DNA from: a virus
Direction: 5' to 3' (one strand)
Virus record (IMG/VR): IMGVR_UViG_3300042549_010437
Coordinates: 1-35,469 of that record
DNA: 35,469 nt
Part shown: piece after piece, positions 2,997 through 25,240 of the stretch
Position numbering within the stretch: the first letter of the stretch is position 1
Layout: every line of letters begins with the position of its first letter
The notes under the pieces: generated by a model
What the model was told of the DNA's origin: nothing
Seen by the model: the letters and a program-made list of their open reading frames with translations, nothing else
Databases searched by the model: none
Made by a program: the position numbers and the translations under genes

Positions 2997-4247
2997 TTAT
3001 TTTAATTTGTGGTAGTTTATACCTCTTTTGGTTTTTGTTTGCAATTTATATTTATTAAATATTCCTACCACTTTAAGCATTACTTCTGGTTCATTTTGAT
3101 CGAAATCAAATAAAAACGAATCGTAAACATATAGTACAAGTTTAGTATTTTTCCCTCGTAATATTTTAAAAATATCCCACAATATAAGAACATTATTTGC
3201 GGTCTCCAAGTTCTGTAACACATAATTTAAAAGTTTTTGTGGATTCATTTCATCCATTTCACTTTTTATAAACCTATGTTTTGAAACAGGACATTCAATG
3301 TATCCTCCATAATTAAAAGAATCCCATAAATCATCTACATATGCTTGTACTTTTTGAAAGAATTCTAAATCTCTATATTCTTTCCAAATACCGCCATAAA
3401 GCTGTTTAAATGTTATTTCCTTTGATTGTTTGTAGTCCACTCCATACATCTGAGCAAAAGCCATATGAATATCATCACACTCGAAAGTGTAATGTAATAG
3501 GTTAGCAAGAAGGGTAGGATGGTAAGCACTAATATCCATTTCAATAAAAATATCGTTGCGTGGTATAAAACATTCTCTTTCTCCATTATCTTTATTTAAA
3601 GCTGAAAAATTTATATTATTAAAAGTGTTTGATGGTCTTGTTGTTAATGTGTTTAGGTTATATTGCGTGTAGATAAACTCGTTTGTTTCTTTATTGAAGT
3701 ACTGCTCGAATTTAGTTTGGTCTACTTTTATCCCCGCTCTCTCTAGTTGATTAAACACGAGTGCTGCTTTGTTGTAAAACGGGTTAAACCTTATTTTTTC
3801 GTAATTTGCAAAATTTTGTTCACATACCTCATAGTGTTTTACAATCGGTACTATTGTATTTAAATGTGGAACATTTGGGTGTTTATTGTAAATATGATTG
3901 TGAGCTTGTGTTAATTTAGGTATATACGTATGGGGGGAGGGTGAGGGTTGGTTACAATGCTTAAGAGCAAAGTAATGTAAAAATTCTTTTCTATCCCTTA
4001 CATAAATGTATTTTATACTATTTAAAATTGATAAACAATCCTCTATTGTTGAATTTATTGTTTCACTATGATTTATTGGTATAATATAACCTTTTGTATC
4101 ATCTTTTGGACGAATGTAAATAGCACATATATCGTTTTCAACAGGGTGTAAATTATGGGAAGTAGGTATTACTTCAACATAAGCTACTTCATGTTTAATT
4201 TGACAAAGTATGTCTATTTTTATTTGATCTTCTATAAGCCAATACAT
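2997..4247 (-). CDS. Miniature family A DNA polymerase, apparently exonuclease-dead
   Basis: This 416-aa protein carries the Pol A palm and fingers motifs in order: TTRPSNTFNNIN (202-213), equivalent to the TGRLSSxxPNLQNIP element; motif A MDISAYHPTLLANL (237-250, D238); motif B KEITFKQLYGG (276-286), which keeps the O-helix pattern K-x3-F-x3-YG (K276, F280, Y284); the NYVLQNLETANN segment (341-352); and motif C YVYDSFLFD (373-381, D376), where the usual His-Asp-Glu is Tyr-Asp-Ser. Only about 25 residues separate AGIKVD (171-176) from the TTRPSN element, against roughly 130 in E. coli Pol I, so the thumb is almost gone. The first 150 residues resemble a shrunken 3'-5' exonuclease fold (GYIIPINH, 53-60) without its DxE motif. 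Pol A is seen; loss of proofreading is inferred. It is the first gene of the replication block. Confidence 0.8.
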   Translation of the reverse strand: MYWLIEDQIKIDILCQIKHEVAYVEVIPTSHNLHPVENDICAIYIRPKDDTKGYIIPINHSETINSTIEDCLSILNSIKYIYVRDRKEFLHYFALKHCNQPSPSPHTYIPKLTQAHNHIYNKHPNVPHLNTIVPIVKHYEVCEQNFANYEKIRFNPFYNKAALVFNQLERAGIKVDQTKFEQYFNKETNEFIYTQYNLNTLTTRPSNTFNNINFSALNKDNGERECFIPRNDIFIEMDISAYHPTLLANLLHYTFECDDIHMAFAQMYGVDYKQSKEITFKQLYGGIWKEYRDLEFFQKVQAYVDDLWDSFNYGGYIECPVSKHRFIKSEMDEMNPQKLLNYVLQNLETANNVLILWDIFKILRGKNTKLVLYVYDSFLFDFDQNEPEVMLKVVGIFNKYKLQTKTKRGINYHKLK

Positions 4248-4940: not shown

Positions 4941-5723
4941 TTAAAATATTACTCTACAAAAACCTGCTACATATTTCCACCCATAACTTAAAATACTTGA
5001 TTTATAAACAAGTCCACCTCCATCTCTTGGGTCTTTTACAGAACAATTACCTTCAACTGTTGAAACATCAATAAGTTTTCCTCCAGATACTTTTACTCCA
5101 ACAACTAATCCAATATGTCCTCCTGTAGGATAATTAAAGGAAATCATATCTCCAGGTTCTGGGAGGGTAGTACCAGCTTTAGCTTCTGTAAAGTTAATAA
5201 ATTGTTTTTTTGCTTTAAAATAATTATTTGTAGCCGATACACTTCTTGAAAGTGGGTTTAATTTTCCTTGGTTTAATTGAGTATTCCAAATAGATAAATA
5301 ATCAGTAGTTGATGGAACTAAAGCATTTCCTACAGTATAAGCATCTTTCCAACATAAATTAGTAAAGCAGTTACACCAAGCCATTGGTGAGCTCCATTTC
5401 ATATTAATATCAGACCAATCCTTCATTTTTGCTTCAAATTTTTTATCATGCCATCCTAAATTATTTCCTGCTACTTCATTATTTCCAACATATGAAAATG
5501 CTATTTTAACTATTCGTTTTCTTAGTTCATTTGTTACACCTGAAAGTGCAACTAAGTTATCGATAGTTTCAAGTGGTAAAGCTATTGAAGATACTGGTCC
5601 ATTAGGTCCTGAGGTTCCGTAAGTTCCAAGTTTTCTATCTTCACTTTCTGCAGGGGGATTTGTTGTGGTGATTTGGGTTGTTGTGAAATTAAATCCGTGT
5701 TGGGTTTGTGGGTTAAATGGCAT
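4941..5723 (-). CDS. Free-standing CHAP-type peptidoglycan hydrolase
   Basis: This 260-aa protein has a Thr/Pro-rich N-terminal tail (1-45, ending in the collagen-like GTYGTSGPNGP) and a CHAP/NlpC-P60-like cysteine peptidase domain (about 65-260). The probable catalytic Cys is C117 in MAWCNCF, the His is H203 in GGHIGLV, and the third polar residue is in VEGN (223-226). LPEPGDMISF (187-196) is the usual strand before the His. CHAP enzymes cut peptidoglycan amide or peptide bonds. The domain is a clear paralogue of the C-terminus of the hub-like protein immediately upstream, sharing GNNLGW, AWCN, FTNLCW, LPEPGDM and DPRDGGG. There is no signal peptide, so it is either virion-borne or an endolysin reaching the wall through a holin not seen here. 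Confidence 0.82.
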   Translation of the reverse strand: MPFNPQTQHGFNFTTTQITTTNPPAESEDRKLGTYGTSGPNGPVSSIALPLETIDNLVALSGVTNELRKRIVKIAFSYVGNNEVAGNNLGWHDKKFEAKMKDWSDINMKWSSPMAWCNCFTNLCWKDAYTVGNALVPSTTDYLSIWNTQLNQGKLNPLSRSVSATNNYFKAKKQFINFTEAKAGTTLPEPGDMISFNYPTGGHIGLVVGVKVSGGKLIDVSTVEGNCSVKDPRDGGGLVYKSSILSYGWKYVAGFCRVIF

Positions 5724-5734
5724 ATTATTTTATT

Positions 5735-8700
5735 TTAAAATAGAACTTTACAGAAACCTTTAATAGTTGAAAGTGAAACTGATGGTTTATATTGGGTTCC
5801 TCCACCATCTCTAGGATCACTAGATGAGGTGTTTCCCCCTATGGTTGAAATACTTGTTAATTTACCTCCAGTAATTTGAGTAGCTGCAACTATTTCAATA
5901 TGGCCAAAGTTAAATACAACCATATCTCCAGGTTCAGGGAGCTTTGTTCCTGCTTTAGCTTCCGCAATTGTGATTGATTGTCCTATAGCAGCAAACCCAT
6001 TCAATGTGTTGAATACTCCAGGGGTAAGAGGTTTACCATACGCCCCTTTATTAAGTTTAGTATCCCAAGCAGATTGGTATGAGGTTGTTGGAGGAACTAG
6101 AGAATTACCGGTTGTATAAGCTTCGGTCCAACATAAATTAGTAAAATAATTACACCATGCATGTGTTAATTGCCACGGAACTTTTAAACTTTTCATTTTA
6201 ACTTCAAATCTAGGATCATACCATCCTAAATTATTTCCAGGAAGTTCAGATTGACCTACGTACGAAGCTGCTATTTTAATTATTCGTTTTCTTAAATCAT
6301 TTGTTGTACCTGAGTTGGTTACTATTTGGTCAATTGCAGTTAAGGTTAAAGCGTATGGGCCTGCTGGTCCACTTGGTCCTGCGGTTCCAAAAGTTCCTTG
6401 GGCTTTAGGTCCAGTTCCACCAACGGCTGTAATATTAGTAGGAGCACCATTGGTAGCATTTCCACTCGGTGCAGAAACTTCTATTATTCTTGGGTCATTG
6501 CTTGATTCTCCTGTATTTGATGGTTTTGGAATAGTAGCTAAACTAGTTTTTCCTATAACCGTTGTTTGGATTTCTGTAGTCCAGTCATTTCCTTTTAATT
6601 CATGGCTAACTCCGGTTACTAAAAAATCTAATGCATTACCATAATTACTAGGTAAAAATCTAGTATCTATACTTAGTTTATTGTATATCTGTAATCCAGA
6701 TATTCCATCTAAGGTAAAATTAAGTTTAAATGGAATAAAACCAAGAGTACCATTTTGATTTCCTGGGGAATTTGCAAGTAAATATTTGTAATATTCGGTA
6801 ACAATAGAAACATTCTTTTTAATTAGATCTTCACTAAACTTACCAATTTTATCTTGAGTAAAATCTCCATCTAATCCATAACATAAATTAACCCATCCTA
6901 TAAAATCTTTATCATAATTATCTTTAGGTTCTATATCAGTATAATTTGGGCTAGGTGGGATTAATTCTTTATTAAATCTATCTATTAATCCGCTATTAAG
7001 TTTTGAAAATGAAACAGCTTCAGTTCCTTTAACATATCCTTTTGCTGTAGCTCCAACAGTAGCTATAGATGCTAGTTCGGGTGTGATGGTAGTTTTAAGT
7101 TCAATATTTCGAGCAAAATTTGAGTCATTTCCAAAATATCCAAAAAGTTCAAGAAAAGTTGAATCTCCTGGGATTTCTTGAGGGATTGGGGTAGTATCTA
7201 TTATATTTATTATATTAGTATTTTCAGTAACTATAGGTTCAAGATTATTAACACCACCTAAAGCTCTATTAATTCCATTACATATTTCAGTTAAAAATGA
7301 AAATAAATTTGTATCTCCTCGTTCATCAGTAGTTGAAGAAAGACATTGAGCTACAAATTCAGTATTAAGGTATATATTCATAGGATATGCCTTATTGTAG
7401 TTATTTTGATCAAAAAATGATTCTAATCCATCAAATGCCCTTTGAGATTTTCCATTATTTTTATCAAAAATACCATTTTTAACTATACACACCATAGGAT
7501 CAGCTGATATAGTGATTGGAAGGGTGTACATCATACTGCTGTTTTCTCCGTATGCTATGTCAATTAATGGTGGTTTTTCAGCTCCATTATCTATTAATGG
7601 AATTATTTTATCTCTAATAAATTGGAGTAAATATCCAAATTTTACATAATATTGAGGTGAGGTAGCTAATATTTTAAATGCTACTTTTGCTGGAGCATCT
7701 GAAATTGGGTTAGAAACTGTGTTAGTTGATGTTGCTGTGGAAGGGATTTCTGTAAAATCATTATAATTTTGAGTTAATGTTCCTGTAACTCCTAGGTAGT
7801 ATGTAGGGGTGCTTCCATATGTTTCAATATCGGTAATGGTAAGTGATGCCCCTGTTTTTAGATTATATCTTTTTACTAATTCGTTTTTAGCGTCTGTTAA
7901 AGGATCAGTTCCTGAAAAGGCTTTAATTTCTTCAACATAGGTCATAGCTCCACCTACAACAACATCAGGAGTTCTAAATTTATATGATTTTGTAGATGAA
8001 GTAAGAGTTGTTACATTATTGTTAATAAACTCACCTACTTTAACTTTTTTTCCATCGGTTAATGTTATACTAATTTCACTTTTTGCTCCAGTATCTACTG
8101 AGTCAAGATATGTCCATAACCATAGCATGGAGTTAAGTAAACTAGAGGATTTATTTCCTTCTACTGTTTGTGCTGCTACCGGAGTATATGTACTAGATTT
8201 ATTAACATCTTCTAAAAATGTTACTAATTTACGATCAATTGAAATATTAGTTTTTAGTGATTCAATAATATCACCCATACTTAATATGGTTATATTGATA
8301 TCATATGAACCATCTTTATTAAACGTCCAATTAAAATTAGAGACAGTTCCAAGAATTCCATCATAGTTTCCACAATAAAATTCACGTTTGGCTTCTATAT
8401 TAGTTAAAATATTTAAATAGTTAGATGAGGTAAAAAAGGAATCCTCTATAACAGTATTTAAAACAGGTTGTACATCTCCATTTCTATCTAAATAAAATGC
8501 ATTTCCCCATTCTAACATTACAGTATAACCTAAACGTAAATAAAGTAAATTAATAGTTTCAAATTGATCTTTGCTATGAACTTTAAGATTAACATTTGCT
8601 TTTTTTAATGAACCCCTATTTAATGATTTAATATCTGCACTTACTATTCCAGCCATAGGGACAGGTCCAAATTCACTGTCTTGATATATTTTATTTCTTC

Positions 8701-8989
8701 CTTCTTTTTGTATTAATGAAGATCCATCAAAAATAGAAGTTCCACCAAATAGTATATTATTTTTAGCTAATCCCATTCCTTTAAATAATGGAGATAACCC
8801 TGAATTAGTTAATACTTCTGAGGTAGTGCTAGATCCAGATGCAAGTTTTACCCAAGCATTATTTCCATTTAAAAAATGGATTTGTTGAGGGCTTCTGTTT
8901 GAAGCAGTGCCACTTCCATGGAGATTTTGACGTTTTTCAATTTGTTTTCTAACGTATCCTAGTGGTGTTTTTCCTAAAATTCCAGCCAT
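5735..8989 (-). CDS. Baseplate hub-like protein with C-terminal CHAP hydrolase
   Basis: This 1084-aa protein is one of three tandem hub paralogues. Residues 1 to about 815 are the shared hub region, with hallmarks SEFGPVPMAGI (105-115), LNRGSLKKA (123-131), RLGYTVMLEWGN (152-163), EISITLTDGKKVKVGEF (305-321), KFGYLLQF (450-457), INRALGGVNNLEPI (573-586), GYVKGTEA (651-658) and SIVTEYYKYLLA (728-739). A linker with a collagen-like stretch, GTFGTAGPSGPAGPY (865-879), leads to a CHAP domain (about 890-1084) with C946, H1030 and N1053. By position after the tape measure and by multi-domain form it should sit at the centre of the baseplate, like T4 gp27/gp5, and open the peptidoglycan during infection. 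Homology to gp27 itself is inferred, not shown. The ATG is two bases from the motif at 8992-9002. Confidence 0.8.
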   Translation of the reverse strand: MAGILGKTPLGYVRKQIEKRQNLHGSGTASNRSPQQIHFLNGNNAWVKLASGSSTTSEVLTNSGLSPLFKGMGLAKNNILFGGTSIFDGSSLIQKEGRNKIYQDSEFGPVPMAGIVSADIKSLNRGSLKKANVNLKVHSKDQFETINLLYLRLGYTVMLEWGNAFYLDRNGDVQPVLNTVIEDSFFTSSNYLNILTNIEAKREFYCGNYDGILGTVSNFNWTFNKDGSYDINITILSMGDIIESLKTNISIDRKLVTFLEDVNKSSTYTPVAAQTVEGNKSSSLLNSMLWLWTYLDSVDTGAKSEISITLTDGKKVKVGEFINNNVTTLTSSTKSYKFRTPDVVVGGAMTYVEEIKAFSGTDPLTDAKNELVKRYNLKTGASLTITDIETYGSTPTYYLGVTGTLTQNYNDFTEIPSTATSTNTVSNPISDAPAKVAFKILATSPQYYVKFGYLLQFIRDKIIPLIDNGAEKPPLIDIAYGENSSMMYTLPITISADPMVCIVKNGIFDKNNGKSQRAFDGLESFFDQNNYNKAYPMNIYLNTEFVAQCLSSTTDERGDTNLFSFLTEICNGINRALGGVNNLEPIVTENTNIINIIDTTPIPQEIPGDSTFLELFGYFGNDSNFARNIELKTTITPELASIATVGATAKGYVKGTEAVSFSKLNSGLIDRFNKELIPPSPNYTDIEPKDNYDKDFIGWVNLCYGLDGDFTQDKIGKFSEDLIKKNVSIVTEYYKYLLANSPGNQNGTLGFIPFKLNFTLDGISGLQIYNKLSIDTRFLPSNYGNALDFLVTGVSHELKGNDWTTEIQTTVIGKTSLATIPKPSNTGESSNDPRIIEVSAPSGNATNGAPTNITAVGGTGPKAQGTFGTAGPSGPAGPYALTLTAIDQIVTNSGTTNDLRKRIIKIAASYVGQSELPGNNLGWYDPRFEVKMKSLKVPWQLTHAWCNYFTNLCWTEAYTTGNSLVPPTTSYQSAWDTKLNKGAYGKPLTPGVFNTLNGFAAIGQSITIAEAKAGTKLPEPGDMVVFNFGHIEIVAATQITGGKLTSISTIGGNTSSSDPRDGGGTQYKPSVSLSTIKGFCKVLF

Positions 8990-8991
8990 GT

Positions 8992-9002
8992 ATATAAATA
9001 TT
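8992..9002 (-). promoter_or_regulatory. Late-motif copy (variant) upstream of hub-CHAP gene
   Basis: The sense strand reads AATATTTATAT, which is the recurrent AATATTTATAA motif with the last base changed. It lies only 2 bases before the ATG and overlaps the end of the upstream gene, so it may be chance or a leaderless start. Confidence 0.3.
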
Positions 9003-11331
9003 ATTTAAAGGAAGAATATAAATTTACAGCAGCTAAAGCTTGATTATAGACTGTTTCATTTCCTGTAATGATATCACAATCAGTTAATGTTCCATTTTTA
9101 TATGCTGGGAGGGTTCTAGCTCCATATCCGTTCCAATCTCTATAATACCTCCAAGCCCATTGATTTGGGTCATCAGCTTGGGCAAACATATTTCTTTCAA
9201 TTATTTTAGAAACTAATGGGATTAATCCTACTTTTAAACTAGAAAAACTATAATAGAATTTTACTATACCCGTTCCACCTTCAGTAGCTTTAACTTTTCC
9301 ATTAACATCAGAAGCAGTAAATACTTTAAAACCAGATGCTTCTACTCCTGTAAGGTTATTATTAAATCCTTTTATTTTTCCTCCAGATCCTTGTTCTCTA
9401 ATACCTACAGATAATGCAGATGTAACAACTCGTTTTTTAATTTGTCTAGAAGCTCCTGGGATCATTGTGTTAACTAGGGCATCAGCTGCTTGAATAAATT
9501 CTTGGTATGTTGCTAAAGTTGTGACTCTAGCTACTTCTGGTTTAGAAGATAAATTTACTGAAACTGTTGGTAATGATGTAGCTGGGGCTATAACTGGTTG
9601 AGTTCCACTCCATTTTACTGATTTAGGGTAAATTGTATCTACATTGTTTGGAGAAGCTAAACCACATACTGTATCTGGGTTTTGTCCTGTTGAAGGAGCT
9701 GATCCTCCAGTACTTGAAACTATTACTGGTTCAACTTTAGGAGCACTTTTAGTCTCAGTTTTGTTTCTAGTTGGGATAACTGATGCTGATGTTTTGGGCA
9801 TGGCTGTTGAAGTAATATCTGTTAACCAGGTATTTCCTTGAAGAGAATGATTAACATTAGTTACTATAAAATCTAAAGCACTTCCATAATCTTTAGGTAA
9901 AAAATTAGTATCTAAAGTTAATTTATTATATATTTTTATACCTGAAATTCCATCTAATGTAAAATTAAGTTTAATTGGGATAAATCCTACAGTTCCTGAT
10001 TGGGGGTTAGATGTTGATTGTTTAGCTAATAAATATTTGTAATATTCTGTAACAATAGATACATTTTTTTTAATTATACTGTCTTCAAAATCACCTATTT
10101 TATCTTCATCAAGGGCTCCATTTAAACCATAACAAAGTGTAATCCATCCTATAAAATCTTCTTCATAATTTACTTCTGGGTCATTTGCCGGGGTAGTAGC
10201 TAAGTTTGGGGGGATTAATTCATTATTAAAACGATCAACTAAACCATTATTCCATCTTGAAAACGCAGTAGCTTCAGTTCCTTTAACATAGCCTGATTTA
10301 GTAGCTCCGGCTGTTATCATTGTAGCAAATTCTGGGGAGATAACTGTTTGGAGGTTAACTTTTCTAACAAATGTAGATTCTATTCCACCATAATATCCAT
10401 ATAATTGAATTATTCCTTTATTTGAACCTACAATAGTTCCTGGGATTGGGGTGATATCAATAATTTTAATAATATTGTCTTCTTCATTTACTATTGGTTC
10501 TAAATTATTTAACCCCCCCAATGCTCTATTTATTCCAGAACATATAGAAGATAAAAATTTAAATAAATCAATATTTCCCTTATCATCTTTTTGTGAAATA
10601 CATTTAGTGATGAAATCAAAATTAAGATAAACATCCATAATGCTAGCTTTATTTTCATTAGTAGGATCCATCCATGGGGGCTCTAATTCACTTAAAACTT
10701 TAGCATCTTTTCCACTAACTTTAGTAAATTTATCTGTTCTTACTAAACATACTTTAGGGTCTAAAGATATAGAAATTGGTAAACAAAACATATCTCCTGA
10801 ACTATATTGGATTTTAATAAGTGGAGATTTATTGTTAGAGCTTATTACAGGTATTATATTTTCTTGAACATATTGAAGTAAATACCCAAATTTAAGATAA
10901 TATTGATGTGTGGTTGATTTAATTCTAAATGCGGTTTTTGGAGGAGCCGTAGAAAGAGGATTATCAATGGATGATGCTACTGTAGAACTTACTTCTACAT
11001 ATTTAACTAATATTTCAGTACTACTAGGATCTGAATAGCCTTTAGAGTTAGAGCCAGCATCCTTTATATCTGTTTCAGGACTTGGGGTTGATGCTACAGT
11101 ATATGTCTTATATTGAGCATATAGTTCTTTATTAGCATCTATACTAGGATCTACTCCGGTAAATGATTTAGTTGATTTTTTATCATATGAAATTGAAGTT
11201 CCACTAGTTGTAGCTTCATAAAAATCATATGTCTTAGTATAAGTAGAAAGGGTTGATGATGAATTTGTTAAAAATTCACCTACTATTACTTTTTTTCCAT
11301 CTGTTAATGTTATTGATATTTCGTCAGGCAT
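9001..11331 (-). CDS. C-terminal part of a split hub-like protein plus unassigned domain
   Basis: This 776-aa protein begins MPDEISITLTDGKKVIVGEF, which aligns with internal residues 304-321 of the hub-CHAP paralogue. Residues 1 to about 520 then match the remaining hub region (KFGYLLQY 147-154, INRALGGLNNLEPI 267-280, GYVKGTEA 347-354, SIVTEYYKYLLA 425-436). It therefore lacks the first third of the hub, which is supplied by the separate gene upstream (10-base gap). After a Ser/Pro linker comes a domain (about 600-776) with GIREQGSGGK (643-652), NNNLTGVE (657-664) and WAWRYYRDWNGYGART (725-740). The pattern of a Glu followed by NNxxG is loosely like glucosaminidase or lysozyme-fold enzymes; I give that low weight. 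ORF and paralogy are certain; the terminal domain function is unknown. Confidence 0.75.
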   Translation of the reverse strand: MPDEISITLTDGKKVIVGEFLTNSSSTLSTYTKTYDFYEATTSGTSISYDKKSTKSFTGVDPSIDANKELYAQYKTYTVASTPSPETDIKDAGSNSKGYSDPSSTEILVKYVEVSSTVASSIDNPLSTAPPKTAFRIKSTTHQYYLKFGYLLQYVQENIIPVISSNNKSPLIKIQYSSGDMFCLPISISLDPKVCLVRTDKFTKVSGKDAKVLSELEPPWMDPTNENKASIMDVYLNFDFITKCISQKDDKGNIDLFKFLSSICSGINRALGGLNNLEPIVNEEDNIIKIIDITPIPGTIVGSNKGIIQLYGYYGGIESTFVRKVNLQTVISPEFATMITAGATKSGYVKGTEATAFSRWNNGLVDRFNNELIPPNLATTPANDPEVNYEEDFIGWITLCYGLNGALDEDKIGDFEDSIIKKNVSIVTEYYKYLLAKQSTSNPQSGTVGFIPIKLNFTLDGISGIKIYNKLTLDTNFLPKDYGSALDFIVTNVNHSLQGNTWLTDITSTAMPKTSASVIPTRNKTETKSAPKVEPVIVSSTGGSAPSTGQNPDTVCGLASPNNVDTIYPKSVKWSGTQPVIAPATSLPTVSVNLSSKPEVARVTTLATYQEFIQAADALVNTMIPGASRQIKKRVVTSALSVGIREQGSGGKIKGFNNNLTGVEASGFKVFTASDVNGKVKATEGGTGIVKFYYSFSSLKVGLIPLVSKIIERNMFAQADDPNQWAWRYYRDWNGYGARTLPAYKNGTLTDCDIITGNETVYNQALAAVNLYSSFK

Positions 11332-11341
11332 ATGATATTAA

Positions 11342-12793
11342 TTAAGGCCAATATAATTGGTCTGATGAATTTGCAAATCTATTATAAAAATCTCTTGCAG
11401 ATTTAGTTCTTTTAAATTGATAACTACCTTCATATATTGGTTTACCTTTATTACATTCATGGCATACTTCAACTATTGCTGCAAATTTCCAAGTTGAATC
11501 TTCTATAGTAGTTTTAGATAAAGGATCATTTAACCATCTATCAGTACTACTTTTCCATCCTCCTTTAAATAAATAATTTAATTGAGCATTTACTGTGGAA
11601 CCTACTAAAGATTCTAACATTTGTTTTGATTTGGTTAAATCTGTTTGGCCTGGGTTGCCTAATTGATTTCCTGAGTTCCATTGGATTAAACCTAAATCGG
11701 TAGTTCCTCCAAAATCTTTATCATTAAATGCTCCTGGGTTAAATCCTGATTCTTCAAACATGTTACCCATAGCAGCGGCTACTTGGATTTTAGTTAAACC
11801 TTGAGCTTTTAAATATGTAAATATTTCTAGTTCATTTATTTTAGTTTGACCACTAGATATAGTAGATGTAGTTCCTGATGGGGAGGTTGAACTTCCTTCT
11901 ACGGTTGATACTGCTGGTTGTGGTGGTGGGTTAAAATATGTCCACAACCAAAGCATAGAAGTGATTAAGTTATCGTCTTTATTTTTTTCTAAAATTACTG
12001 AATTTCCTGAAATTGATTGGTTAGCTTTTCTAGCTTCTTTAAGGAATGTTGTAGTTTTACTATCAACTGAAATGTCTGTTTTTAATGATTCAACTACATC
12101 TCCTAAACTTAAAATAGTTAAAGTTATATCATATGAACCATCAGGATTAAAAGCCCAATCAAAATTAGAAATTCTTCCCAATAAAGCATCGTAATTACCA
12201 CAATATTTTTCTCTTTTTCTTTCAATAAATGGTAATACAAATGTGTAATCTCCATCCGAGGAAAAAGAAAAGAAAATATCTTCTATAAGAGTATTATGGA
12301 TTTCTTGAACATCTCCATTTTTATCTAAATAAAATGTATTTCCCCACTCTAACATTACAGTATAACCTATTCTCATATAAAGAACATCAATAGCATCAAA
12401 TTGTTTTTTATTGTGGGCTTTTATTTTTACTGTTGATTTTTTTAATGAACCACGATTTAATGCTTTAACATCAGCACTTATTATACCGGCCATAGGAACA
12501 GGACCAAATTCACTATATTTATACGTTTCATCAAATCCATTTTTTTGAGTTAAAGACGAACCGTTGAATGTTGATGTTCCATTAAATAATACATTATTTT
12601 TAGCTAATGAACTACCTATTCCATTTGTCGTTACATAAACACCAGAAGCTAATTTTATCCAGGATGTATTACTATTCAAATAATGTATTTGTTCTGGGGT
12701 TCTGTTTTTAGCGACTCCACTCCCATAAACTTCTTGTCTTTTAGTTATTTGATTTTTTACGTAAGGTGGAATTTCATTTCCTATTATTGACAT
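11342..12793 (-). CDS. N-terminal part of a split hub-like protein plus tail lysozyme
   Basis: This 483-aa protein matches the first third of the two full-length hub paralogues: RTPEQIHYLN (31-40), SEFGPVPMAGI (94-104), LNRGSLKKS (112-120), RIGYTVMLEWGN (141-152) and SMLWLWTYF (279-287). There the hub sequence stops. A Ser/Thr/Pro linker (288-318) leads to a lysozyme-fold domain (about 322-483) of the phage-tail-lysozyme type, with the helix QVAAAMGNMFEESGFNPGAF (337-356; E348 the likely catalytic acid) and DLGLIQW (366-372). It should hydrolyse the glycan strands of peptidoglycan. The missing hub part is the next gene, ten bases downstream. This resembles T4 gp5 in principle, where a lysozyme domain sits in the middle of the hub/spike protein and is separated by proteolysis; here the separation is in the genes. 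Confidence 0.8.
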   Translation of the reverse strand: MSIIGNEIPPYVKNQITKRQEVYGSGVAKNRTPEQIHYLNSNTSWIKLASGVYVTTNGIGSSLAKNNVLFNGTSTFNGSSLTQKNGFDETYKYSEFGPVPMAGIISADVKALNRGSLKKSTVKIKAHNKKQFDAIDVLYMRIGYTVMLEWGNTFYLDKNGDVQEIHNTLIEDIFFSFSSDGDYTFVLPFIERKREKYCGNYDALLGRISNFDWAFNPDGSYDITLTILSLGDVVESLKTDISVDSKTTTFLKEARKANQSISGNSVILEKNKDDNLITSMLWLWTYFNPPPQPAVSTVEGSSTSPSGTTSTISSGQTKINELEIFTYLKAQGLTKIQVAAAMGNMFEESGFNPGAFNDKDFGGTTDLGLIQWNSGNQLGNPGQTDLTKSKQMLESLVGSTVNAQLNYLFKGGWKSSTDRWLNDPLSKTTIEDSTWKFAAIVEVCHECNKGKPIYEGSYQFKRTKSARDFYNRFANSSDQLYWP

Positions 12794-12797
12794 GTTT

Positions 12798-15700
12798 TTA
12801 AGGTATTGCGTTATCTAAATTTTGACCAATTAATGCAAATGATGGAGTAGCGGCTCCTGGATGGGTTGGGTAAAATCCGATTTTTGGGTTGATAAGAGTT
12901 GCTCCTAAGTTTGTATATTTTGTATAATATGCATTTACTTCTGATTCTAGAATATTTTTTAATCCTACAGTACCTGGTACTGCTGTCCACCCCCAAGAAC
13001 CTTGGATAACAAATATTTTAGCGTTAGGGAATTTTAATTTAACAGCCGCCATTAATCCAGGAACATCATCATTCATAAATTTACCAAATCCACCATTTGT
13101 ACCTACACATAAAGCTACATTTTTAACTTGTGGACTTACAGCAAATGCTTTAATATCATCTCTCATATTAAGAGCAGTCCAACCACTTTGCCATAATGAA
13201 CCTGGTCCTCCTGTTGGTTTAAGTCTTGAAAATTTAGTTGATTTTGCATCTACATCTGGTGTTTGAGAATCTCCTATTAATAAATTTGGTGGGACTGTTC
13301 CTGTAAATGGAACTGCAGATGGAGAAACAGCTGTAGAAGGTGTAGAAGTAGTTGTAGTTGTAACTGGTTGAGGTCTTGGTGTATTATTTAAAACATTTGT
13401 TATTTTAAAATCTGGGATTTTAAGTGGGGTGGAGTTAGGGTGACTTATAGTTTGAATTTCAGTTTCCCAATCATGTTTTCCTAACTTATGGCTAATTTCA
13501 GTTACTATAAAATTTAATGCATCTCCATAGTCTTTAGGTAAAAATTTAGTATTAGTTACAATTCTATTATATATTTTTATTCCTGAGAGACCGTCCATAG
13601 TAAAACTTAATTTAAATGGGATAAATCCTATACCACCACCTTGTTTTTCTTTACTAGAAGCCATCACATATTTGTAATATTCTGTAGCTATTGATATGTT
13701 TTTATTTATTATATCATCTGATATAGTTCCTAATTCACTTGGGGTATCTCCTAAAACTCCACTAAATCCATAACAATATGTTTTCCATCCAATGAAATCG
13801 TGCACATAATTATATTCTGCCTCATTTTCATCTCCTATAGTTGCTGATGAAGGGTTAGATGGGATTAGTGTTTTTCGAAATCTATCTGTAATACCTTCAT
13901 TCCATCTAGCAAATGCTGTAGCTTCGGTTCCTTTAACATATCCTCCAGCAGTAGCCCCAATAGAAATCATAGTAGCATATTCTGGGGTTATTGCAGTTTT
14001 AATATCAAGATTTCTGATGAAATTTGATTGGGTTCCATAATAACCAAATAATTGCATAAAATATGATGGGGTTGATAATACTCCTGGGATTGGTGTAGAG
14101 TCTATTATCTTAAGAATATTTTCAGATTCATCTATTATTGGTTCTAGATTATTTATTCCACCTAGAGCTTGATTTAATCCTGTACATATTGCTGAAAGGA
14201 AATTATAGATATTTACATTTCCTTTTTCATCTACATTACTAGAAATACAACTATTAATAAATCCAAAATTAAGATATATATTCATAGCGTATGCTAAGTT
14301 AATATTAGTTCCACTACTATCTATATCATTCCAAGATTCTAATTCACCTAATACTACATCTGGTTTTTTATCAGATTTAATAAATTGTTTATTTTTTACT
14401 AAACATACTCTAGGATCTAATGATATTGAAGATGGAAGACAATACATTAAACTACTATTTTTACTATATACTATATCTACAATTGGGGAATTTGAACCAT
14501 TTGTACTTATTTCAGGTATAACATTTTCTTTTAAAAATTGAAGTAAATATCCAAATTTTAAATAAAATTGTTCTGGGTTTTGGCATTGAATTTTAAATGC
14601 TACTTGTGAAGGTGCATTTTTTAATGGATTATCAGTGTTTGATGTTGTAGTTGTAGTAACAGATTCTACCCATTGAACCCTTGCATTTTTTGGGCCAAAA
14701 GAATTGTTTTCATATTTTCCGGCATTTCCTATTACCTCTGGATGGGAGGGGTAAATTTGATTATATTTTTTAAGGGCTTCATCTCTAATAAATTTATCAA
14801 AATCAACAGTACCCGCGGGGGATGAAATTGAGGTTTTATCTGATTCTATTTCAGCACCTCCAGGTCCACCTCCAACCCAATGGATTAAATTCCAAGTTTT
14901 AACTGAGGAAGAAAATGTTGCTGTATTACCTCCATTATTTAAAAATTCACCTACTTTATGAGATTTAGTTTGTTCTATAGTAATTTCTGGTCTAGTAGTA
15001 CCAGCTTCAGTATCAGTATGATCAAAATATTTCCATAAAAATAACATAGAACTAATTATATTATCATCTTTATATGTTTCTATAATAACTGGGGTGTTGT
15101 TGGCAGTTTTAGCATTTCTTCTAAATTCAGTTAAAAATTTAGATGTTTTATTATCTATAGATAAATTTGTTTTTATAGATTCAATTACATCCCCAGCACT
15201 AGTTATTGTTAAATCTATATCATATGATGCATCTTGGTTAAATGTCCAACTAAAATTAGTAACTTTACCAAACATCCCATCATAATTTCCATGATATATT
15301 TCTTGATAATCTTTTATTCTAGGAAGGATAGATTTATATGAACTTTTTGATGGGGAGGAAAAAAATAAATTTTCTATAATAGTATTTTCAACTTTTTGAA
15401 GATCAGTACCATTAGTTGTAAAAAATGTGTTCCCCCACTCTAACATTACATTATATCCTAAACGTAAATAAAGTAAACTAAGAGTTTCAAATTGTTTTTT
15501 GTTATGTGCTTTTATTTTAACGTTTGCCTTTCTAATAGAACCTCTATTTATGTATTTTATATCAGCACTTATTATACCAGCCATAGGAACAGGTCCAAAC
15601 TCACTATATTGATATGTTTTATCAAAACCTTGTTTTTGAGTTAAAGACGAACCGTTAAACGTTGATGTACCACCAAATAATACATTATTTTTAGCTAATT

Positions 15701-15920
15701 CCATTCCTGTAAGGGATGGATTTAAATCAGAATTAATTAATCTAGATGAGTCTGATATTGATACACCAGATGCTAATTTTATCCAAGTAGTATTAGAGTT
15801 AAGATAAGCTATTTGTTCTGGGGTTCTTGTTTGGTTAGTTCCGCTACCCTGGACTTTTTGTCTAGCTTTTATTTGGTTTACTACCCAAAGTTCTATATCT
15901 TGTCCTATTACATTACCCAT
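12798..15920 (-). CDS. Baseplate hub-like protein with C-terminal SGNH hydrolase domain
   Basis: This 1040-aa protein is the most upstream of the three hub paralogues and is full length. Shared landmarks are RTPEQIAYLN (32-41), SEFGPVPMAGI, RLGYNVMLEWGN, KFGYLLQF, GYVKGTEA and YYKYVMA, running to about residue 840. A Thr/Pro/Ser linker (about 846-878) precedes a domain of about 160 residues with the SGNH/GDSL blocks: block I NLLIGDSQ (879-886, nucleophile S885), block III CVGTNGG (938-944, N942) and block V YPTHPG (1017-1022, H1020). The Asp usually three residues before that His is absent (Tyr), so a Ser-His dyad is likely. Such domains deacetylate or de-esterify sugars; a target in the cell wall, capsule or surface glycans is inferred. 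The stop is 4 bases before the next hub gene. Confidence 0.8.
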   Translation of the reverse strand: MGNVIGQDIELWVVNQIKARQKVQGSGTNQTRTPEQIAYLNSNTTWIKLASGVSISDSSRLINSDLNPSLTGMELAKNNVLFGGTSTFNGSSLTQKQGFDKTYQYSEFGPVPMAGIISADIKYINRGSIRKANVKIKAHNKKQFETLSLLYLRLGYNVMLEWGNTFFTTNGTDLQKVENTIIENLFFSSPSKSSYKSILPRIKDYQEIYHGNYDGMFGKVTNFSWTFNQDASYDIDLTITSAGDVIESIKTNLSIDNKTSKFLTEFRRNAKTANNTPVIIETYKDDNIISSMLFLWKYFDHTDTEAGTTRPEITIEQTKSHKVGEFLNNGGNTATFSSSVKTWNLIHWVGGGPGGAEIESDKTSISSPAGTVDFDKFIRDEALKKYNQIYPSHPEVIGNAGKYENNSFGPKNARVQWVESVTTTTTSNTDNPLKNAPSQVAFKIQCQNPEQFYLKFGYLLQFLKENVIPEISTNGSNSPIVDIVYSKNSSLMYCLPSSISLDPRVCLVKNKQFIKSDKKPDVVLGELESWNDIDSSGTNINLAYAMNIYLNFGFINSCISSNVDEKGNVNIYNFLSAICTGLNQALGGINNLEPIIDESENILKIIDSTPIPGVLSTPSYFMQLFGYYGTQSNFIRNLDIKTAITPEYATMISIGATAGGYVKGTEATAFARWNEGITDRFRKTLIPSNPSSATIGDENEAEYNYVHDFIGWKTYCYGFSGVLGDTPSELGTISDDIINKNISIATEYYKYVMASSKEKQGGGIGFIPFKLSFTMDGLSGIKIYNRIVTNTKFLPKDYGDALNFIVTEISHKLGKHDWETEIQTISHPNSTPLKIPDFKITNVLNNTPRPQPVTTTTTSTPSTAVSPSAVPFTGTVPPNLLIGDSQTPDVDAKSTKFSRLKPTGGPGSLWQSGWTALNMRDDIKAFAVSPQVKNVALCVGTNGGFGKFMNDDVPGLMAAVKLKFPNAKIFVIQGSWGWTAVPGTVGLKNILESEVNAYYTKYTNLGATLINPKIGFYPTHPGAATPSFALIGQNLDNAIP

Positions 15921-15937
15921 AACCTATTTAAAATTAT

Positions 15938-16252
15938 TTAAATCACACCATTTAATCTCTCATAACTTGAAATAATACTAGGTATTCTACTTGGTGATGG
16001 AATTCTTAATTGAGCACCAACACTTGGATATATTGAATCCAAACTTTGAAATGTGTTAGATCTAGCTATAACCCACCATAAACTAGAATCACCATAATAA
16101 TTTTGAGCCATAATATCATATCTGTTACCTTGTGTAATATACACATAAAGATCTGAATTTCCAAGGGGAATTTCAGGATATTTAACAGTTGAATATCTTT
16201 TTATTTGACTTTCTGGGGTTTGTCTAATAGGGATTCTAGAATATCTATTCAT
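15938..16252 (-). CDS. LysM-like small baseplate protein (gp53 / tail protein X type)
   Basis: This 104-aa protein has a LysM-like core: YVYITQGNRYDIMAQNYYGD (36-55), then SLWWVIARSN (56-65) and SIYPSVGAQLRIPSPSRI (73-90). The pattern of a threshold strand, helix, YGD, W-x-I-x-x-x-N and a final xLxIP strand is shared by T4 gp53, P2 gpX and other small baseplate components that clamp the hub to the tail tube or wedge. It lies between the 952-aa junction-like protein and the first hub gene, which fits. Homology to gp53 as such is not proven. There are no membrane or signal segments. Confidence 0.72.
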   Translation of the reverse strand: MNRYSRIPIRQTPESQIKRYSTVKYPEIPLGNSDLYVYITQGNRYDIMAQNYYGDSSLWWVIARSNTFQSLDSIYPSVGAQLRIPSPSRIPSIISSYERLNGVI

Positions 16253-16263
16253 AATATGTTAAT

Positions 16264-19122
16264 TTATATCCCAAATGGGTTTTCTTGAACAACATTGTTA
16301 GATGCTCCAAAAAAGAATGCATCTACTTGATTTCCTTCAGTATATGTTCTTATTATTTGATTTTGGTCTGAAGGTAATTGGTCGGTTAAATCTATTGGGG
16401 GTGGTTTTAATGATTTATATAAGAAAGAACCAGAAGGATCAAAAGTATTATTATTAGAAATATATCTTTGATTTCCAAAAGCACTTTTACCATCTTGTTC
16501 ACCATTTAAAATGCTTCTAAGGGTTTCTGCATCTGTTTCTCCAGATGGAGTAACTATATTTTGTATTTTCGGTCTGAAATTTTGTATAGGAGTAAATTTC
16601 ATTTGAACTTTAATTATAAAAGGAAGTTCTAATGGGGCAATATCTGGAGCTGGATAAGTTGGGTCTTGTATAACTATATTCCATGGAGAATCTTCTGGAA
16701 TTTCAAATTGAAGACTGTTTATTATTCCTGGTTGGTTATCTAAGTAATCTCCTAAAGTAAGGTTAGCAATATTACCTCCCATATACCCATTAGTTGAGTA
16801 ATATGGGGATAAAGAAGATGCTAAGTAATTTAGTTTTCTATACATGGTAACTAATTCTTCTTTAGATTGAGCAACTACAGTAAATGATAAACTTATATCT
16901 CTATTAAATCCACCATATTTGTAAAATTTTTCTCCTCTACCCATATACTCAATCTTATTCCAATCAGCACTATATGAATCACCAAAAGAATCAATAAATG
17001 ATCTAAAGTGCATATAAAAATTTTCTTTTGTATCTGGGTTGTAGATAGAAATATGAAATTTAATCATATCATCTACTAAAGTTTTATCTTGAATAGGTTT
17101 ACTAGATTGATATATAGGCAATGCTGTAATTCTATCTACAGGACCCATCCTTGTTTGGGTAATATTATCAATTTTTCCTAATGTAGGAAAATTTAAATTT
17201 CCTGGTGATCCGGGTCCTGTGCCTTTTTTCCCACCTAGATTTAATCTAGTTTCAATGTTTTGAGTTTTATAACTAGGAGAGATACTTAAAAATGTATGAC
17301 CTTCTAAAGCATTTAAACTTTTTCTAAAATCTTCTAATGTAGAATGATCAACATCATTTTTTGTTTGAAGTTTAATAATTAAAGGATCTGTAGTAGAGTA
17401 TTTTTTAGGATTTAATGGGACAGTACCATTAGCTAAAGTAACTGTAACTGTAGGAGTAGGATCCGTAGCATATGTTACTTGAGTAGCCCAAGGTTGTAAT
17501 GTTAATGAATTATTTTCTAGTAATCTAGAGGAATTTGATAATTTAGATATATAATCAGGATCACCAAAATAATCTTCAGCAGCATATCCAGCTTTGTAAA
17601 ATACTGAACCTCCACTTCCATTTGGTCCATTACCATATATAAAATCTGGGGAGAATCTATTTGGATTATTTGGGCCATGGTTGGGGTATGCTGTCCCTTC
17701 ATATGGGTCTTGAAAGTTATAACCTGTTCTTGCAGGAGTTATACCATCATTTAATGTAGCAAATTTAATTTTAGTTTTACCTATACCTAAAATACTACCT
17801 GGTCCTCCACCATATGATAAAAGTGTGTCTGCAGTAGATTCAACAGAATTATTTATATTTAATCCAAATTTATCCCATAATCTTAAAAGTCTATTTTTAT
17901 ATTTTCCACCTAAAGTAAGTTCTTCTAATTCTTCTTCGGCATCTAGGATTTGTTCGGGAAGTTTTTTTACTTGTTTAGCATAATATGCTTCTTGATCTTT
18001 ATCGTTTTTTATAGCTTTTTCACGGGCTATTTTTTCTTGAGAGTCTTTATTTTTTGCTTCTTTAAGTTTTTGTTGATAACCATTATTATCTGATTCTATA
18101 GTTTTTCCTAGGGTTTCATCAAAGGTATATGTTGTTTTATCATATCCAGTATCTCTTCCCCATTGTAATATAGCGGCTTCATATGATTGGTAAATTGAAC
18201 CATTATATGGAACATTTCCTGTTTGATATTGAGGATCAGTACTAGCATCATAATCTTTATAGATTTGGAGGTGTACTTGAGCATCCGTTAAATAATCCTT
18301 TAATTTTTGGATTTTATTAATTTTTCTAGATACTTTGCTTTGATATCCTTTAGAATTTTCGGAAGAAATATCATTTTTATTTCGATTAAATGCTACTTTT
18401 TGATAGTCTCTAATACTTAATTGAGGAATTATACCTGTTGGGTCAATCCCTTTATCATTCAAATGTATACCTGCAAATCCAGTAGCAGCTTGACCAATAG
18501 TAGATAATGGAGTATATAATCCTCCATTTAAAACTCCATATAAATATGCTGCACCTGCCCTAGCTGGTTCTGTTTTAACAGCAACTCTAGAAAGTAAATT
18601 TTGTTTAGCTAAAAATAAAACTCCGTTTACACTTTTGTAATCTAAAAAATATTTTGTTAAACGAGTAGCATCAATTACAGAACGTGATAATGATTTAGTT
18701 CCTCCTCTGATTATGCTATCTGGTATATTTGGTAAATCATCAACAGCATATACAAGACTTCCGGCTAAAGGTCCAAAAGAAGCAAATTGGTTAAAGGTAT
18801 TTTGGACTAAACCCGCTGGGCCTAAACCATTAGTTGGTTTAAAAAAAGCAGCGTTGAATGGGAGTAATCCTGGTTGAGACCAAGCATTTATAAAATTGCC
18901 CCAAGCATCTCCTACTGTCTTAGTACCTGTTCCTGTAAGTCCAACACCTTTTATATAAGGTTGACTACTACTTCCTCCACCAGGTCTATCTTTACCAAAC
19001 GGAATACTTTTTTGTCCAAAACTATTCGCTGAAGATACATTTCCTACCTGACCTTCAGAATTTCCAGAGTAAAATTTAAAATTTTCTGGGTTAGTTAATA
19101 ATTTGACAAGAAAAGAACCCAT
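16264..19122 (-). CDS. Large baseplate / tail-tube junction-like protein
   Basis: This 952-aa protein has a glycine-rich N-terminus opening MGSFLVKLLTNPENF, a helical and charged middle with coiled-coil character (roughly 265-410, including EEELEELTLGGK), a Pro/Gly/Asn-rich part and a conserved-looking C-terminal region. In that region the order IKFHISIYNPDTKENFYMHF, then SFTVVAQSKEELVTMYRKLN, then LGDYLDNQPGIINSL resembles the tube-like beta-sandwich domains of baseplate tube-initiator and cap proteins (T4 gp48/gp54 class). The placement between the tape-measure block and the LysM-like gene supports a role at the junction of baseplate and tube. No enzyme motif was seen. The name is inference; the structural role is likely. 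Confidence 0.65.
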   Translation of the reverse strand: MGSFLVKLLTNPENFKFYSGNSEGQVGNVSSANSFGQKSIPFGKDRPGGGSSSQPYIKGVGLTGTGTKTVGDAWGNFINAWSQPGLLPFNAAFFKPTNGLGPAGLVQNTFNQFASFGPLAGSLVYAVDDLPNIPDSIIRGGTKSLSRSVIDATRLTKYFLDYKSVNGVLFLAKQNLLSRVAVKTEPARAGAAYLYGVLNGGLYTPLSTIGQAATGFAGIHLNDKGIDPTGIIPQLSIRDYQKVAFNRNKNDISSENSKGYQSKVSRKINKIQKLKDYLTDAQVHLQIYKDYDASTDPQYQTGNVPYNGSIYQSYEAAILQWGRDTGYDKTTYTFDETLGKTIESDNNGYQQKLKEAKNKDSQEKIAREKAIKNDKDQEAYYAKQVKKLPEQILDAEEELEELTLGGKYKNRLLRLWDKFGLNINNSVESTADTLLSYGGGPGSILGIGKTKIKFATLNDGITPARTGYNFQDPYEGTAYPNHGPNNPNRFSPDFIYGNGPNGSGGSVFYKAGYAAEDYFGDPDYISKLSNSSRLLENNSLTLQPWATQVTYATDPTPTVTVTLANGTVPLNPKKYSTTDPLIIKLQTKNDVDHSTLEDFRKSLNALEGHTFLSISPSYKTQNIETRLNLGGKKGTGPGSPGNLNFPTLGKIDNITQTRMGPVDRITALPIYQSSKPIQDKTLVDDMIKFHISIYNPDTKENFYMHFRSFIDSFGDSYSADWNKIEYMGRGEKFYKYGGFNRDISLSFTVVAQSKEELVTMYRKLNYLASSLSPYYSTNGYMGGNIANLTLGDYLDNQPGIINSLQFEIPEDSPWNIVIQDPTYPAPDIAPLELPFIIKVQMKFTPIQNFRPKIQNIVTPSGETDAETLRSILNGEQDGKSAFGNQRYISNNNTFDPSGSFLYKSLKPPPIDLTDQLPSDQNQIIRTYTEGNQVDAFFFGASNNVVQENPFGI

Positions 19123-23515: not shown

Positions 23516-24079
23516 TTATCTAATTATAGTAACGTGTCCATGAATTAATCTACGTTCGTCTGTACCCAATATTCCAAAATCAATAACCCAAGTGTAAACT
23601 CCATCTGTTACTGATTTATTGTTGTAGGTTCCATCCCAACGTGATTCAGCATTCCAGCTCTCCCAAATCAAATTTCCCCATCTATTAAGTACAATTAAAT
23701 GGAAATCATCTTTTTCATATGGACCTTCAAACATAGGACCCCATGTTGTATTGTATTCATCATCATTTGGAGTAAATGTATTTGGAACCCAATAAAGTAA
23801 AGGATCACATTCAATTACAATAATACTATATGTTTGAGGAATACTAGAACATCCATCTGCAGTAGCAGTAGCTGTTATTATATATGTTCCTGGTTTGTCC
23901 CATGCAATTGTTATTTCATTTCCATAATAATATTGCCCATCACAATACCATTCAATGTTACTAGCAATATCCGATTGAGTTGAATAACTAAAGTATTTAA
24001 CATCATCACATATCTCTATGGTTTGTTGAGAAAATACTAGTAAAGGTATTAAAAATAATATGGAAAAAATTAATTTCAT
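23516..24079 (-). CDS. Exported protein with T9SS type B (gliding-motility) sorting domain
   Basis: This 187-aa protein has an N-terminal signal peptide (MKLIFSILFLIPLLVFSQ, 1-18) with the FSQ end common in Bacteroidota. A PKD/Ig-like beta domain (about 25-90) follows, then the complete gliding-motility-associated C-terminal domain (about 97-187): VPNTFTPNDDEYN (98-110), VLNRWGNLIWES (130-141), WDGTYNN (148-154), DGVYTWVIDF (159-168) and GHVTIIR (181-187). In hosts this domain directs proteins that have crossed the inner membrane through the type IX system to the cell surface. The ATG overlaps the stop of the previous gene (TAATG), indicating translational coupling. Export to the surface of the infected cell is the inference. 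Such a domain inside a tail-gene operon is unexpected; function unknown. Confidence 0.85.
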   Translation of the reverse strand: MKLIFSILFLIPLLVFSQQTIEICDDVKYFSYSTQSDIASNIEWYCDGQYYYGNEITIAWDKPGTYIITATATADGCSSIPQTYSIIVIECDPLLYWVPNTFTPNDDEYNTTWGPMFEGPYEKDDFHLIVLNRWGNLIWESWNAESRWDGTYNNKSVTDGVYTWVIDFGILGTDERRLIHGHVTIIR

Positions 24080-24636
24080 TAATTATGTTGTATTGGAGAT
24101 AATACTGGTACTGGATTGATAACTGCTCCTGTATTAGCACTAAATGTACATCCACTTTGAGTATAAGTATAAGTAATCAAGGAATTTGTTGTTCCGGGAC
24201 AAAATTGATTTCCCGATACACCTGTACCACTCCATATTCCTCCTGTAGGTGTTGCTGTTAATACTAGACATGGGTCATTAGCACAAAAAGGTCCTACTGG
24301 GGTAATTACAGGGATAACTTGGTATATCAACACATTAAGTGTTACTGGTAGAGCAGGACATCCAGCTGCACTTGAATATGCTACTGTAATTGCATTATTA
24401 ATTAATCCTGGAGGACAAGCTGACCAATTTACTTGGATTGAATTTGTTCCTTGACCTGAGGTTAATGTAGCACAAGATGGAATTGTCCAAGTATATGTTC
24501 CTGCACCAACTGAAGGTACTGTATAAGTTGATAATGCTGTGGTTTGGTAACAAACGGTATCCGGGTTAATTGTTGTTAATTGAGAATAAACAATTGATGG
24601 GATAATTAGAAGAAGTGTAAAAATTAATTTTTTCAT
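24079..24636 (-). CDS. Exported PKD-like protein, second of the secreted trio
   Basis: This 185-aa protein has a signal peptide (about 1-19, ending IPSIVYSQ) and two or more Ig/PKD-like beta segments. Typical phrases of Bacteroidota surface adhesins are present: GAGTYTWTIPSCATLTSGQG (44-63) and TGGIWSGTGVSGNQFCPGTT (131-150). Several cysteines (29, 55, 74, 93, 118, 123, 146, 163) could form disulphides after export. It lacks a sorting domain of its own and ends NPVPVLSPIQHN, similar to the end of the preceding protein (TPVLGNIIHN). The stop overlaps the start of the sorting-domain gene by one base. It looks like one segment of a long host-type adhesin encoded as a separate polypeptide. Confidence 0.78.
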   Translation of the reverse strand: MKKLIFTLLLIIPSIVYSQLTTINPDTVCYQTTALSTYTVPSVGAGTYTWTIPSCATLTSGQGTNSIQVNWSACPPGLINNAITVAYSSAAGCPALPVTLNVLIYQVIPVITPVGPFCANDPCLVLTATPTGGIWSGTGVSGNQFCPGTTNSLITYTYTQSGCTFSANTGAVINPVPVLSPIQHN

Positions 24637-24646
24637 TTTTTTGTTT

Positions 24647-25240
24647 TTAGTTATGAATAATATTCCCTAATACAGGGGTTGTTGCGTTAATTGTTCCATT
24701 AAACACGTTAAACGGCGTTACGGCATCACAGCTATTACTCGTATAACTACCCCAAAGCCCATCAGAACCTGCGGTAACTTGAATTAATAAACTTTGAGGG
24801 GTACATACATTTGCTACTACTAAAGTAACACAAAATGTCCAAGTACATGAGCCTGCATCTCCAAAATCATTTCCTGGATTACCATCTATGGTTAAATCAA
24901 AAAAGTATCCTGGTCCTACTGTTACTACAGGTGTTGTGGTTGATGTTACTGAGGTTTTCCATACCCATTGCCCTCCAGTTGCATTACCTCCACAATTAGC
25001 AGGAGCCGTTTGAGGTGTAACAGAAGCCCAACCAGCACCTAATGTCAAGTCAAATCCATCTACCCAATTAGTACCTGCTTGTGTATATCCATTCATTGTA
25101 TAACACATTGTTACTGTTTGGCCAGGTAAATAAGTTCCTCCTACGGGTGGTGGGGATAAAGTAAATGATTGTGTTCCATTACATTGACTATAACTAAAAT
25201 AAGAAATAAAAATAAATAATATAACAACAAATAATTTCAT
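24647..25240 (-). CDS. Exported beta-rich protein, first of the secreted trio
   Basis: This 197-aa protein has a hydrophobic signal peptide (about 1-19, ending SYFSYSQ) followed by CNGTQSF. The Cys after Q does not make a proper lipobox, so ordinary cleavage is more likely than lipidation. The mature part is Gly/Thr/Val-rich with beta-sandwich features such as GGTYLPGQTVTMCYTMNGY (34-52), DGFDLTLGAGW and PGNDFGDAGSCTWTFCVTL (121-139), like cohesin- or PKD-type domains in Bacteroidota surface proteins. It ends TPVLGNIIHN. It is the first gene after the terminator, so the trio can be transcribed apart from the tube gene. Function unknown; a surface or envelope role is inferred from the signal peptide. 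Confidence 0.75.
   Translation of the reverse strand: MKLFVVILFIFISYFSYSQCNGTQSFTLSPPPVGGTYLPGQTVTMCYTMNGYTQAGTNWVDGFDLTLGAGWASVTPQTAPANCGGNATGGQWVWKTSVTSTTTPVVTVGPGYFFDLTIDGNPGNDFGDAGSCTWTFCVTLVVANVCTPQSLLIQVTAGSDGLWGSYTSNSCDAVTPFNVFNGTINATTPVLGNIIHN

Follow-up and report, generated by a model that had tools for sequence, protein, structure and literature searches.

The window, by which we mean the whole stretch of 35,469 nucleotides analysed here, is a linear IMG/VR virus record (IMGVR_UViG_3300042549_010437) and a fragmentary metagenomic contig. Its tail module is T4-like and, when read leftward, comprises two sheath genes, a tube gene (weak match to PF06841), a tape measure gene (match to phrog_167), a baseplate wedge gene and a block of hub genes, followed by replication genes for gp32 (PF08804) and, as judged by eye, a RecA-like protein. 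In the reading direction, both the tape measure and the gp53-like wedge lie upstream of the hubs, and the order of the baseplate cluster around the hub was found to be the same in relatives. The features of the hub block and its neighbor are:

15938..16252, minus strand: gp53-like baseplate wedge protein adjoining the hubs (phrog_7145, E = 3.7e-9)
12798..15920, minus strand: h1, hub paralogue 1, 1040 aa, hub at about residues 1-845 (ORF, tblastn, alignment, AlphaFold)
12798..13298, minus strand: SGNH-like C-terminal domain of h1, with GDS at 883, GTNG at 940 and H1020 (motifs only)
11342..12793, minus strand: h2a, 483 aa, N-terminal part of hub paralogue 2, hub body at residues 1-305 (ORF, tblastn, alignment)
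11375..11836, minus strand: tail lysozyme domain (Phage_lysozyme2) at the h2 break (PF18013, E = 2.5e-18, residues 320-473, whole profile)
9001..11331, minus strand: h2b, 776 aa, C-terminal part of hub paralogue 2, hub body at residues 1-527 (ORF, tblastn, alignment)
9001..9750, minus strand: C-terminal domain of h2b, no family match (AlphaFold pLDDT 36)
5735..8989, minus strand: h3, hub paralogue 3, 1084 aa, hub body at residues 1-829 (ORF, tblastn, alignment)
5735..6322, minus strand: CHAP-type C-terminal domain of h3, with C946 and H1030 (PF05257, E = 0.045 and 0.011; motifs)
4941..5723, minus strand: stand-alone CHAP protein, 260 aa, with C117 and H203 (PF05257, E = 1.6e-4)

Junctions in and beside the hub block have gaps of 4-17 nt, those from h1 to the stand-alone CHAP gene measuring 4-11 nt. 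Within the block, no clear excess of promoters or terminators was found, nor were long identical repeats or inverted repeats of note; repeat-based switching among the hub copies is ruled out by the lack of long identical repeats. Judging from the operon layout, h1, h2 and h3 are probably made together from one operon.

Several other features of the window were recorded. The 952-aa baseplate protein at 16264-19122 has a counterpart of 954 aa in L125, a related viral contig, and shorter counterparts (506-716 aa) in several relatives checked (L005, L026, L048, L074, and the Flavobacterium phage immuto). Two tandem tail-sheath paralogues (25874-27607 and 27653-29416) are 50.5% identical, and a second sheath gene is also present upstream in many single-hub relatives (L022, L031, L139, L144, and L149); given the paired genes, the sheath may be mixed too. 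Three secreted-looking proteins are encoded within the tail module (23516-24079, 24079-24636, and 24647-25240), one with a CHU_C type IX secretion sorting domain (3.6e-14), which points to a Bacteroidota host, and another with a PKD_6 domain. Beyond the hub block, a 416-aa protein (2997-4247) with a weak match (6e-5) to the end of DNA polymerase A adjoins the same 153-aa gene in relatives, and is perhaps part of a split polymerase.

An earlier, sequence-only reading had proposed three tandem hub paralogues at this locus, and this was borne out by the minus-strand ORFs and by tblastn of h1 against its own record, in which h3 (E = 4.9e-247), h2b (3.3e-145) and h2a (1.0e-111) were detected far beyond chance. 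At the protein level h1 is 48% identical to h3, 45-48% to h2b and 58-59% to h2a, and the short motifs previously listed as shared by the hubs were found at aligned positions in the copies. A poorly conserved linker (h1 residues ~250-445) shows roughly 20-40% identity, compared with 45-70% in the flanking parts of the hub. Among 68 single-hub rows, 63 columns are conserved in 90% of the rows or more; h1, h2 and h3 each retain 62 of these, while the single hubs themselves depart from these columns 1.6 times on average. The window hub set consists of several full-length paralogues with different C-terminal domains, and every one of them is a complete hub subunit of the gp27/VgrG type, whose variable C-terminal slot ordinarily holds a peptidoglycan enzyme.

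The fold of the hub was modeled with AlphaFold2, using the hub part of h1 (13386-15920) together with 30 relatives (pLDDT 79, pTM 0.77). The best Foldseek matches of the model among solved structures are mostly hubs and spikes of contractile injection systems, and include the AlgoCIS spike (E 2.6e-5), the phi812 baseplate, the Anabaena eCIS, Mu-gp44-like proteins of Neisseria and MuSo2, VgrG and, further down the list, T4 gp27. These matches are local and partial, with low global TM-scores (0.2-0.5), and comparison of hub sequence profiles with the PDB found nothing credible. Because the global scores are low, the hub identity rests on the consistency of the structure matches together with gene position. 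The predicted tail hub is supported by a model whose matches are of the gp27/VgrG/Mu gp44 type.

The second paralogue is divided between two ORFs. h2a comprises the N-terminal part of the hub followed by a complete tail lysozyme, and h2b begins where the hub resumes, so that the alignment agrees with the earlier view of the 483- and 776-aa proteins as one split hub; as read from the sequence, h2a and h2b form a single hub that carries one enzyme where it is broken and a further domain at its C-terminus. This interruption falls in the poorly conserved linker, which is also split in single-hub phages (L015, L017, L023-L025, L031, L110-L113, and L122), and in L110 and L112 a tail lysozyme (PF18013, ~1e-14) likewise occupies the break, at a somewhat different point. 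Since both the splits and the lysozyme recur in single-hub phages, the h2 break is a recurrent and tolerated architecture. A frameshift or pseudogene is ruled out by the whole lysozyme domain and by the recurrence of the split elsewhere. The single split hubs of L110 (7086-10975) and L112 (7077-10975) share the plan of h2 and end in a domain that is CHAP/NlpC-like by motif and has no Pfam match.

The ends of the hubs had been read as different wall-active domains; the ends do differ, but two of the four assignments proved weak or missing. The tail lysozyme of the split pair was confirmed as a complete Phage_lysozyme2 domain, a wall enzyme fused to the hub. The CHAP domain at the end of h3 was retained on its Cys and His motifs, which it shares with the 260-aa protein, as the Pfam scores of both fall below the curated cut-off. 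The end of h1 displays the GDS, GTNG and His motifs of the proposed SGNH hydrolase, but Tyr replaces the usual Asp of DxxH, and no sequence match was found in Pfam, PHROGs or the PDB; relatives of this end were not detected in phages or viral contigs. No relatives of the h2b end were found in phages, viral contigs, bacterial genomes or plasmids, its low pLDDT was obtained when it was modeled alone, and a profile comparison of the h1 and h2b ends with those of the relatives found no similarity. The region 4941-15920, previously described as the hub set, does contain it, but also includes the 260-aa ORF that had been passed over; this encodes a CHAP protein in its own right, a paralogue of the h3 end with which it shares 53% identity.

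Hub relatives were collected by scans of viral contigs and combined with the window and immuto (NC_055915) to give 169 loci with hub sequence, some of which are from the same contig; no relatives were found in bacterial genomes. One hub with one last domain was the rule (135 loci), while one hub body was accompanied by two last domains at 11 loci and by three at 4. Three full hubs were present at two loci, the window and L125, and the remaining 17 loci were cut or had no hub body or no last domain. Neither a pair of full hubs nor a fourth last domain was seen at any of the 169 loci. In ordinary relatives the hub is usually followed by one swappable wall-enzyme domain, including chitinase-like GH19, amidase_2, M15/VanY, GH24, SLT, PF18013, cell wall hydrolase_2, DUF2272, DUF5675 and CHAP-like (by motif) domains, among others; L005 has a hub without any enzyme. 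The presence of DUF5675 (L045 10577-11284) and DUF2272 (L041 12767-13432) in the wall-enzyme slot suggests a cell-wall-directed activity for both families.

A search among related viral contigs for hubs in three copies identified one further case, L125 (17,870 bp), in which three full-length hubs occur in the same order, position, orientation and gene context as in the window. Thus, the three linked hub paralogues stand as described but are not unique to the window. The flanking replication genes of the two contigs are 82-88% identical, whereas the hub pairs are ~54-59% (h2 and h3) and 45% (h1) identical. All six hubs keep 59-63 of the 63 conserved columns, within the range of single-copy hubs, and form one clade in the tree (support 100/99), in which h2 pairs with L125b (99/98), h3 with L125c (100/98) and, more weakly, h1 with L125a (91/81), the last pairing being left unresolved by the topology-test analysis. 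Topologies that force either the window's three or L125's three hubs into one clade were rejected (p-AU 0.0195 and 0.0244). Separate triplications in the two phages are accordingly rejected at a p-AU of about 0.02; with the pairing in the tree, this indicates that the triplication predates the split of the window and L125 and has been retained since. The history of copy 1 could differ, as its pairing is weakly resolved, and the retention is not very deep in time, since the flanking genes are still so similar and triplets are known from two phages only. Nonetheless, that a second virus keeps the same three copies suggests that all three matter. The CHAP end is common to h3 and L125c, while slot 1 ends in the SGNH-like domain in the window versus a transglycosylase-like domain (phrog_7182) in L125, and slot 2 in the h2b domain without family match versus an endolysin-like domain (phrog_90).

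A different layout was found in a sister clade, at loci L026, L048, L074, L088-L090, L093, L095, L097, and L101, which form one clade where sampled. Here the hub body ends before the last domain of ~100 residues and is followed by one to three genes, never more, each encoding the last domain joined to a different end. Because the hub body is without that domain, each hub monomer presumably receives it from an arm protein. Loci with the three-arm layout, a hub body and then three arm genes, include:

L026, 9995-15685 (arm genes at 12671-15685)
L088, 6239-12110
L089, 6331-11998

The arms of L026 are transglycosylase-like, lytic-transglycosylase-like (by eye) and M23, those of L089 are hydrolase_2, VanY and M15, and those of L090 include PF18013 and VanY. 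In L026 the three arms share 77-82% identity in this last, docking domain. On more than one occasion this lineage has equipped a single hub with multiple enzymes. They number at most three, which is also the subunit count expected in a hub.

Taken together, the hub fold, the paralogy, the ancestry shared with L125, the full hub constraint and the swappable enzymes are shown by computation. The interpretation that we favor, at about even odds, is a modular multi-enzyme hub in a T4-like contractile-tail phage of a Bacteroidota-type host, in which a triplicated hub undergoes mixed assembly. By this account the tail-hub gene was triplicated, with the middle copy split into two ORFs and an extra tail lysozyme placed at the break; the three hub proteins would be co-produced and come together at one site, and, because the hubs are so similar, mixed trimers would be the simplest outcome. 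One tail tip would then present several putative wall activities (lysozyme, CHAP amidase/endopeptidase, SGNH-type esterase, and one without an assigned family) that may open the cell wall. That the three are expressed together, that they assemble within the same virion and that their end domains are enzymatically active is here inferred. A stricter form, an obligate or preferred A:B:C heterotrimer with its own enzyme on each subunit and, together with the sister clade, a plug-in system of up to three enzymes per hub, is held more tentatively, at somewhat short of even odds; it is compatible with the data, and in its favor are (i) full hub conservation, (ii) the tight operon, (iii) the shared ancestry and retention, and (iv) the parallel clade with up to three arms.

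Alternatively, each paralogue may form its own homotrimer, giving three interchangeable tips and a mixed population of virions from one infected cell, which would be bet-hedging for hosts with different walls. Every copy is a complete hub, the window and L125 have kept their hubs but carry different enzymes in slots 1 and 2, and the paralogous VgrG1 and VgrG2 of Serratia apparently do not form heterotrimers (PMC4924876). However, the genes form one operon-like block without a switching or regulatory signature, and the single hub body of the sister clade accepts as many as three arms through docking domains so similar, as in L026, that sorting into pure trimers would be hard there. We regard separate homotrimers as less likely than mixed ones, but as a serious rival. 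It is improbable that one copy only is the structural hub, the others being enzyme carriers at another baseplate site or remnants in the course of being lost; the stop and inserted lysozyme that split h2, and the position of h1 as the least closely paired copy in trees, would fit, but every copy in both phages keeps the conserved hub columns, and the split form recurs stably in single-hub phages, with lysozyme at the break in L110/L112. An assembly or annotation artefact, conceivable for a single metagenomic contig without an isolate, has next to no likelihood given copies only ~48% identical in protein and ~60-80% in DNA across alignable stretches, and is refuted by the independent contig L125, which carries the same triplet.

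Known systems provide partial parallels to the mixed, multi-enzyme hub. In phage T4 the lysozyme-spike, gp5, is separate from the single gp27; similar to the window hubs, the gp27-gp5 complex has a hub fold at the tail tip, adjoins wedge genes and carries a wall hydrolase, whereas the window enzymes are fused to a hub whose gene is present three times. The closest isolated relative found, immuto, encodes a homologous hub with a C-terminal VanY, but this hub is single and 28% identical. Known tail hubs had been taken to be homotrimers with one enzyme; gp15 of Anabaena phage A-1(L) is indeed homotrimeric, yet carries three extra domains named lysozyme, endoglucanase, and peptidase, the latter two of which were shown to be active (PMC10966104). 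Like h2a and h2b combined, gp15 has wall-enzyme domains both within the N-terminal half and at the C-terminus, but it is the product of one gene without paralogues (PMC10966104). Bacillus phage 0305phi8-36 gp147 likewise combines a gp27-type core with exchangeable wall-degrading ends, but in one copy (PMC2147016). The VgrGs of type VI secretion systems (T6SS; V. cholerae VgrG1-3 and A. dhakensis) resemble the window in having several hub/spike paralogues with different effectors (PMC8668125, PMC3166118), although they belong to a bacterial weapon and not a phage. A VgrG heterotrimer has been proposed and is genetically supported in some systems, the genetics of V. cholerae and A. dhakensis pointing to mixed spikes or a need for several effectors (PMC8668125, PMC3166118). 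A literature search turned up no publication on a phage with three hub paralogues, although such a search cannot prove absence. Overall, the hub fold, paralogy and different ends of the sequence-only reading hold, and the heterotrimer it proposed would fit the data; the three linked copies are not unique, and the one-enzyme rule for known hubs is not quite right.

The usual view of tail hubs is that of threefold-symmetric homotrimers. The present results describe two evolved layouts for placing several wall enzymes on a hub: three whole paralogues, or a hub body with up to three arms. If the hubs mix, the symmetry assumptions made in tail-tip reconstructions would hide the mixing, and the domain that docks the arms would lend itself naturally to fitting different lysins to one tail. 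The heterotrimer question, which is open for VgrG spikes, thus becomes testable in phages.
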